From Deltaproteobacteria bacterium (GTDB lineage Bacteria > Desulfobacterota > GWC2-55-46), in assembly GCA_016177845.1 (NCBI GenBank), contig JACOUO010000029.1, positions 124,001 to 188,000 of the forward strand: a stretch of DNA of 64,000 nucleotides, read 5' to 3'. The notes under the pieces are model-generated. The model was not told where the DNA came from and did not search any database. It saw only the letters and a program-made list of their open reading frames with translations. The translations under genes were made by a program, and so were the position numbers. This document shows, piece after piece, positions 14,714 through 20,270 of the stretch (position 1 is its first letter; each line of letters begins with the position of its first letter).

Positions 14714-15184
14714 TCAAAGCCTGATATTGCGTCCTGTTACATAGACAAGCCCCAGGCCTGTCAATAGCACGAGCATATTAAGGGCAGAACTTTTAAAATG
14801 TATTTTCTTGAATTCTTTTTCAATGGATTCTTTTTTAACAGGGTCCTCAACGACCTTGGCCTGCGCCTTCAGCTCCCTTGCCTTTGCGGCAACTACAAGC
14901 CCTGTATAGAAAGTCACTACTGTCATTACGGTAAGGAGAAAAAGCCGGGCTGCCGGGAAACCCTTTTCTATGAACGAGATGGCGATAAGAGTGGAAAGGG
15001 ACAATATCCCGGAGATATAGCCTATTGCCCAGTATTTGGGAAAGATGCTCCCGACAAGGGCGCCTGCCATATCTTTCGGCAGAACCCTGAATATACTCGG
15101 AGCCACAAAGAAAGTAAAGAAGATAAGCGCTCCCACCCAGACGACGATGCTTAGAAGATGTATGAATTTTAACACATTAAGCAT
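14714..15184 (-). CDS. Four-helix membrane protein, DUF4149/TMEM205-like
   Basis: A 156-residue integral membrane protein with four predicted helices at about 5-27, 47-70, 78-100 and 130-150. The first helix carries HLLSIVVWVGALIFFTFFVAP, seen in DUF4149 and related copper-resistance D-like proteins. A charged loop (KARELKAQAKVVED) lies before the last helix. Function is not established for this family. It sits between cbiB and the dodecin gene in the same direction. Assignment to DUF4149 is by appearance. Confidence 0.75.
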   Translation of the reverse strand: MLNVLKFIHLLSIVVWVGALIFFTFFVAPSIFRVLPKDMAGALVGSIFPKYWAIGYISGILSLSTLIAISFIEKGFPAARLFLLTVMTVVTFYTGLVVAAKARELKAQAKVVEDPVKKESIEKEFKKIHFKSSALNMLVLLTGLGLVYVTGRNIRL

Positions 15185-19235: not shown

Positions 19236-19240
19236 ATAAG

Positions 19241-19371
19241 CTCTGATTAATTCTCGTTTCTGCTGTCATTGCGAGAAGTGAAACGACGAAGCAATCTCTA
19301 ACTGCTTGATTTATCTAAAAATTAGATTGCTTCGCTGCTCTCGCAAAGACTACTCAATGAATTAATCAGAG
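19241..19371. repeat. 131-bp palindromic intergenic repeat element
   Basis: The ends are a perfect 12-bp inverted repeat, CTCTGATTAATT at 19241-19252 and its complement at 19360-19371. A second perfect 11-bp inverted pair, CGAAGCAATCT (19287-19297) with 19324-19334, lies inside. The sequence TGTCATTGCGAG near 19264 followed by ACGAAGCAATC resembles dispersed REP-like repeats known from many environmental genomes. The whole can fold into a long hairpin and may end rsmE or the receiver-PilZ transcripts. No transposase is present. Confidence 0.8.
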
Positions 19372-19376
19372 GTTCC

Positions 19377-20102
19377 TTAGATAAGCATCTCAGAGTCAAA
19401 CTCGCCTGTAAGCTGGTCCTCGATAAACTTCCTCAGGCCAAGCTGAATCTCCCTGTCAAGATTAAGGAAACGTATGCCCATGCCAGGCTCAATATATTTT
19501 TCCTGCCCCGGCTTGACCACATAGATAACCTCTCCGTCAAGGGTCAGAGGCTTTTCACTCGGCAGGTCCAAAGCCAGCTTTATCTTTGTATTCACAGGAA
19601 GCGGATTAAGTGAATGGATGAACGCGCCCTGCTCTGATATCCTTGTGGCAAATGAGCTTCTGCCGGTATTGCCCACAAAGATGGTTGTCTTGAATATAAC
19701 CCTGAGCCTTGGTATCTGCCTCGGGTGAAGCTCTACAAGATTATGCACTGTCCTGTACAGCTCAGTTGCACTGATGGGCCTTGTGATATAGCCTTCCGCG
19801 CCTTTTTTGACGCTCTTTTCAAGGTTGGCTTTTTCAGACCTGTCGCCCACCATCACTATTTTTATGATGCTGTACATCTTTGTCGAGCGAAGCTTCTCAA
19901 GACAATTCTGCCCTTCGATTGGCGGCATATTCACATCCAACAGTATCAGATTGGGCATTATCCCGTTGGCTATGCGAAGTATATCAAGGCCCATAGGGGC
20001 TACAAATACATTGTACTCAAGCCTCTTTAAAAGAAGCGCAAGATGAAGGCTCCTGTCAGTATTGTCATCCGCTACAAGAATATTTTTAGGCAGGGCTGAA
20101 AT
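19377..20102 (-). CDS. Receiver-PilZ response regulator, likely ATT start codon
   Basis: A two-domain regulator of 241 residues read from ATT 20102. Residues 7-125 form a receiver with NILVADDNTD and phospho-acceptor D56 (LLDVNMPP). The C-terminal 100 residues resemble PilZ, but the c-di-GMP motif is imperfect: SEQG is present while the preceding Asp/Asn and the RxxxR arginines are not clear. Starting at the first ATG (19994) would remove the first strand and the acidic pocket of the receiver. No ATG, GTG or TTG occurs between that point and the upstream stop. GGAGG at 20110-20114 lies 7 bases before the ATT codon, so ATT is chosen. Its target process is unknown. Confidence 0.8.
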   Translation of the reverse strand: MSALPKNILVADDNTDRSLHLALLLKRLEYNVFVAPMGLDILRIANGIMPNLILLDVNMPPIEGQNCLEKLRSTKMYSIIKIVMVGDRSEKANLEKSVKKGAEGYITRPISATELYRTVHNLVELHPRQIPRLRVIFKTTIFVGNTGRSSFATRISEQGAFIHSLNPLPVNTKIKLALDLPSEKPLTLDGEVIYVVKPGQEKYIEPGMGIRFLNLDREIQLGLRKFIEDQLTGEFDSEMLI

Positions 20103-20270
20103 AGGGCAGCCTCCTCTGATAATTTTTCAAATGAATTATTCCGGGTCAAGGCTTCACACCGGAACAATAAAAGCATATACTAACCCGTAATTTTCGTCAA
20201 ATCAGAGATTTCCCGCCCAAAGCATTTTTGAGCTTGTGGGCAGATGGCAAAACATTTAAAATGACCTCTC

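Follow-up and report, generated by a model that had tools for sequence, protein, structure and literature searches.

The window analysed here, a 64,000-nt stretch of the genome of a Deltaproteobacteria bacterium (the source genome), carries on its minus strand a gene for a receiver-PilZ response regulator (19377-20102) that, read from an ATT codon at 20100-20102, encodes 241 amino acids followed by a stop codon. A Shine-Dalgarno (SD) sequence, AGGAGG, lies at 20110-20115, and an in-frame TGA at 20127-20129 closes the frame upstream, the minus strand reading TGA AAA ATT ATC AGA GGA GGC TGC CCT ATT TCA GCC CTG CCT AAA AAT ATT CTT GTA GCG GAT. The earliest in-frame ATG of the gene is at 19994, and a product initiated there would begin at residue 37, losing 36 residues that include the start of the receiver; ORF calling limited to ATG, GTG, and TTG hence yields a truncated receiver domain. 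Read from the ATT, the receiver (PF00072; 61.4 bits against a curated cut-off of 30.2) spans residues 8-119 (19746-20081) and covers positions 1-110 of the 111 in the profile, which bears out the proposal of the initial annotation that the domain is whole only if translation starts upstream of ATG 19994. Its further observations, that no ATG, GTG, or TTG occurs between the upstream TGA and the receiver and that GGAGG (20114-20110) stands 7 nt before ATT 20102, likewise agree with the sequence.

The PilZ domain (PF07238; 33.7 bits against a curated cut-off of 22.5) occupies residues 128-227 (19422-19721), and TIGR02266 also matches the protein, below its cut-off (49.8 vs. 68.7). The phosphorylation site of receiver domains consists of an acidic pair, the phosphorylated Asp, a Thr or Ser, and a Lys. 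In the 16 family sequences aligned, the phospho-Asp is invariably present, while the second acidic residue is lost in 14 (it is kept in the window and is Glu in G013) and the signature Lys is replaced by Arg in 14, including the window, and by Asn in one copy of G010, being retained only in the second G010 copy; a complete phosphorylation site is thus not found. The second c-di-GMP motif of the PilZ domain, (D/N)xSxxG, keeps the Ser and the Gly and lacks the Asp/Asn in all 16 sequences. The RxxxR sequence, named as the PilZ c-di-GMP motif in a report on PixA (PMC8316039), reads RxxxK in the window and is seen as RxxxR in three of the 16 (G005, G006, and G008), and the two receptor motifs are not found in full. 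The changes at the Lys, the second acid, RxxxR, and the Asp/Asn hence point to an atypical receiver and make the protein a doubtful c-di-GMP receptor.

Conservation of the start codon

Searches for the regulator detected the gene in 15 of 30 family genomes, the source included, at E ≤ 1e-30 (11 of the 19 more complete genomes), a match in 18 of 48 genomes of the order, and, with an alignment as query, 24 of 63 genomes of the class at 1e-35. Family and order homologues share 36-56% identity. The start region could be read in 17 family copies, with two copies each in G010 and G020 and the G007 copy taken from a contig-end fragment (L134). At the aligned start position, 12 of these 17 carry ATT, ATC, or ATA (ATH) behind an SD site: ATT in G000, G010, G024, G026, G027, G028, and G029, ATC in G019 and in the first G020 copy, and ATA in G025, G006, and G008. 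This recurrence at a single aligned position exceeds chance as judged from the alignment, and the SD-to-ATH spacing is 6-9 nt in every case. The remaining five copies are canonical, with ATG in G005, GTG-ATG in G007, and GTG in the second G020 copy at the aligned position, and with ATG one codon away in G013 and in the second, diverged G010 copy, so that 15 of the 17 present ATT, ATC, ATA, ATG, or GTG at the position itself.

The initial annotation had read translation as beginning at the ATT and had proposed the codon of orthologs at this place as a check. The comparison strongly supports that reading: since related copies mostly keep ATT, ATC, or ATA, the weak start appears to be real, and since the canonical orthologs have their ATG or GTG there or one codon away, they too mark the ATT position as the start, contrary to the suggestion that orthologs might initiate normally elsewhere. 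In eight of the 12 ATH copies (the window and seven others), the interval between the upstream stop and the receiver contains no in-frame ATG, GTG, or TTG. Of the other four, two (G026 and G010) carry a TTG in frame on the 5' side of the SD; in the remaining two (G006 and G008), a TTG or GTG that could serve as the start immediately precedes the ATA, though just 3 nt from GGAGG. The existence of canonical family copies indicates that the near-cognate start is not indispensable. A tandem duplicate of the regulator on contig C65 of G020 (L021 and L023), with an ATC start in one copy and GTG in the other, offers a natural pair for comparing a weak and a stronger start.

Outside the family, a canonical codon is available at the front of all nine homologues inspected (three in family f3, four in f13, and one each in f8 and f9). 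Parsimony on a tree of 24 proteins, built after removal of the first residues, requires five changes between the canonical and ATH classes, or four if G006 and G008 are scored as canonical, and eight changes in start-codon identity. Because the deep branches of this tree are poorly resolved, a single gain followed by reversions and several independent gains are both possible.

The regulator protein is under purifying selection, with dN/dS of 0.07-0.26 in the 10 pairs for which the ratio could be computed. In an eleventh pair (G000-G029), synonymous sites are saturated and the ATT start is retained in both members; G029 and G024 also share it at a dS of 1.42. Across the six genes of genus g13, ATT accounts for seven of 107 internal Ile codons (starts excluded) versus five of the six starts, although these ATT starts share descent and are not independent events. 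By this comparison, the codon behaves as a start held near-cognate, unlike an ordinary Ile codon.

Upstream region and gene neighborhood

Promoter-like sites were scanned in 15 family copies and three outgroup copies, with G007 and the second G010 copy left out. Near-consensus sites ending 25-36 nt before the start, and matched by at most four of 200 shuffles, precede 11 of the 15 family copies, two of which have canonical starts. In the window, no promoter better than shuffles was found, the best candidate (TTGACG-17-TATGCT, 20172-20200, minus strand) lying 69 nt from the start and being equalled by 21 of 200 shuffles, which places it not above chance. The best site in G024 was matched by 92 of 200 shuffles, and those of G019 and G013 lie 80 nt (0/200 shuffles) and 53 nt (2/200) from the start. 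A promoter at a common place in all copies was therefore rejected, as it fails in these four. Folding of eight 55-nt leaders revealed no outstanding RNA structure that might hide the start (z-scores of −0.68 to 0.71).

Within the roughly 1.5 kb of flank available, rsmE lies downstream of the regulator at 11 of 15 family loci inspected, and G029 and G024 also share the more extended gene order running from cobD to divIVA; both arrangements support the orthology of the regulator copies. In the window, a repeat of about 134 bp (19238-19376) separates the 3' end of the regulator from that of rsmE and is bounded by 16-nt terminal inverted repeats (19238-19253 and 19359-19374). Of 58 first-look candidates, 40 were scored, and among the 41 matches listed in the source genome there are 16 copies, its own included, with at least 90% identity over at least 116 of the 134 bases. 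Its copies and terminal inverted repeats identify it as a MITE-like element.

Other near-cognate starts in the family

As a positive control, the infC gene was located at 26 loci (L029-L054) in the 30 family genomes, and all 26 carry an ATA start. No in-frame canonical alternative exists at 22 of them; at the other four, all from genus g2, an in-frame GTG falls inside the ribosome-binding site and could be picked by an automatic caller.

Homologous ORFs were then surveyed for further cases. A first pass compared 400 kb of G029 with 400 kb of G024 (182 ORF pairs, 30 raw candidates), and a second, which covered 161 ORFs and yielded 22 candidates, compared 330 kb of the source genome with both, together with two infC loci; candidates in both passes were inspected by eye. 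The third pass consisted of three comparisons that overlap and share genes: 800 kb from each of G029 and G024, with a G024 infC locus added (304 ORFs kept, 174 of them N-terminally informative); the source genome against G029 (206 kept, 136 informative); and the source genome against G024 (168 kept, 110 informative). In 47, 27, and 14 pairs, respectively, both partners showed homology reaching three or more codons beyond their first canonical codon. Requiring an SD ahead of that codon reduced these to 24, 12, and 7 pairs, at the cost of losing infC in both G024 comparisons. When an ATH codon was sought 4-10 nt after an SD-like 4-mer and aligned within one codon in both partners, only the regulator and infC emerged from the 47, 27, and 14 pairs, in each of the three comparisons, in a survey blind to genes present in a single genome and to any ATH start with a canonical codon close behind it. 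Conserved starts of this kind thus appear rare in the sampled stretches.

Relaxing the partner rule, so that 14 or more codons of the homologous part had to precede the first canonical codon (a cut below which infC falls), added by eye the cheD-like gene of the source genome alone. Everything else on the relaxed list resembled an antisense shadow, an overlap between genes, a frame that was broken or fused, or, in one instance, a release-factor-like ORF with its front in another frame, and was discarded. The added gene (L105:14278-14778, minus strand, contig C9), which we take to be cheD-like from its sequence, appears to be without a canonical start before its conserved part. An ATT at 14751 follows GAGAGG by 8 nt, and several orthologs have TTG, GTG, or ATG there; the ATH start is not conserved in the relatives read, and the gene may possibly start instead at a downstream ATG without an SD.

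Canonical codons are available in six receiver paralogs of the source genome. At 20 of 20 pcnB-like loci (PF12627; 20 of the 30 genomes, inspected by eye), the conserved N-terminal stretch has a canonical codon ahead of it, in most cases GTG; because the scan took the earliest such codon in the longest ORF, it reports availability rather than use. With a canonical codon at hand in all 20, no ATH start is needed, and a pcnB parallel within the family was set aside.

Discussion

Initiation factor 3 (IF3) rejects initiation complexes that lack pairing between the initiator tRNA and a canonical start codon. Starts at AUU, AUC, or AUA are for this reason expected to be weak and IF3-sensitive, with a strong SD holding up a basal yield, and the infC gene itself has an AUU or AUA start that limits its translation. 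In E. coli pcnB, which the initial annotation cites, an AUU start is reportedly limiting as well (Binns and Masters). The regulator described here resembles both in its AUH start, and infC is ATA-initiated throughout the regulator's own family; infC, however, serves the autoregulation of IF3 itself, while pcnB encodes an enzyme whose relatives in this family have canonical codons available. The closest parallels lie among regulators. The ccpN (AUA) and cvfC1 (AUU) genes of Staphylococcus aureus have conserved starts behind extended SDs; in poor medium, both yield about 10% of what AUG gives, with ccpN reaching up to 30% in rich medium and cvfC1 showing no medium effect (PMC13009471). They share with our gene a conserved near-cognate AUH codon behind a strong SD, and ccpN is a regulator and cvfC1 a possible one, but they encode other proteins in another organism, and their starts are documented by ribosome profiling and reporters where ours is read by comparison (PMC13009471). 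The Streptomyces sigR gene starts at GTC in 32 of 34 species and at GTT in two, and is repressed by IF3 (PMC5472188). It too is a misannotated signalling regulator with a conserved non-canonical start, behind AGGAGGTG, although its GTC/GTT codons are not AUH, its product is a sigma factor with an anti-sigma gene in the operon, and its IF3 control is experimental (PMC5472188). In domain content, the nearest comparison is PixA of Myxococcus xanthus, a response regulator of PilZ and receiver domains encoded by an orphan gene, which differs in having PilZ first, in its full set of c-di-GMP and phosphorylation residues, and in its role in motility regulation (PMC8316039). The words "start codon" are absent from the text of that paper (PMC8316039).

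The explanation that we hold to be probable is that the regulator is translated from the ATT and that AUH, kept by selection, limits initiation at the IF3 check, giving a low yield and an IF3-linked dosage. In this explanation, AUU 20102 would be read by the initiator fMet-tRNA under the guidance of the strong AGGAGG. Because selection would retain the near-cognate AUH in most of the family, initiation is expected to be limited at the IF3 start-codon check, the atypical receiver-PilZ protein would be made in small amount, and its level should increase under a shortage of IF3 relative to 30S subunits. By analogy with infC, sigR, and ccpN/cvfC1, it is most likely that the weak start limits translation and renders the regulator IF3-sensitive, and the suggestion of a deliberate IF3-linked control point is, on the same analogy, plausible. 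Sequence comparison shows where the start lies, that it is conserved, that the protein is under purifying selection, and that such starts are rare in the stretches sampled, while we infer the low yield, the IF3 sensitivity, and the dosage-control purpose.

A close competitor, to which we would give somewhat less than an even chance, also accepts the ATT start as real and takes it to be a fixed brake, a constant cut in dosage that transmits no change in IF3 or growth state. S. aureus cvfC1, with its AUU start at about 10% of the AUG yield and no growth-medium effect, offers a precedent for such behavior (PMC13009471), but a gene requiring only low output could weaken its promoter or SD instead, and 11 of the 15 copies scanned combine a promoter-like site with strong SDs, an argument from which the window is exempt, since it lacks such a promoter. 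The canonical starts of five family copies, and the presence of the gene in only 15 of the 30 family genomes at 1e-30 (11 of the 19 more complete ones), would in turn agree with drift in an unimportant gene, the near-cognate codon being a tolerated, slightly deleterious mutation. We regard this as improbable, because the protein is under purifying selection and because the third base varies among T, C, and A while the class persists even where synonymous divergence is saturated; Belinky et al. also report a single AUG-to-AUU change among 61,358 ancestral AUG starts.

A lineage that uses AUH starts freely, in which the regulator would be nothing special, could account for ATA in all 26 infC loci and for the candidate ATT start of the source cheD-like gene. 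It is nonetheless very unlikely, since no third conserved case appeared among the 304, 206, and 168 homologous ORFs, and the six receiver paralogs and 20 pcnB-like loci have canonical codons available. We give still less credit to the use of a different start, be it an upstream TTG or GTG, the CTG at 20093, or a start in another frame combined with frameshifting. In-frame TTG or GTG codons do exist upstream in G006, G008, G026, and G010, and in the window gene the CTG occupies codon 4; in eight ATH copies, however, the receiver is preceded by no in-frame canonical codon, the CTG is separated from the SD by 16 nt and is absent at that place in the g13 orthologs, and the ATH codon is the feature common to all 12 copies, 6-9 nt behind every SD. 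An error of sequencing or assembly, which the initial annotation had named as a possible source of the ATT, is contradicted by ATH at the same place in 11 other copies, and its probability is negligible.

Conserved near-cognate starts in regulators constitute a known, small class, which the receiver-PilZ gene joins. In the literature searched, whose coverage leaves out most subscription journals, no response regulator with a conserved near-cognate start was found, nor any paper treating PilZ, response regulator, start codon, and AUU together. Few genes of bacteria are known to have preserved a near-cognate start through extended evolution; every such gene is readily overlooked and demonstrates that the start codon itself can have a regulatory role. 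For the protein itself, the weak start probably keeps production low, and a regulator controlled by its amount rather than by phosphorylation would, speculatively, fit its atypical receiver. A broader and distinctly doubtful extension of the IF3-linked explanation is that infC and the receiver-PilZ regulator form a small IF3-read set, in which the receiver would be switched chiefly by amount and its level would report how much free IF3 there is per 30S subunit, tying translational capacity to PilZ output such as pili or surface behavior. The presence of a response regulator with an ATH start in a lineage whose infC is also ATH-initiated makes the existence of such an IF3-read gene set a testable question.
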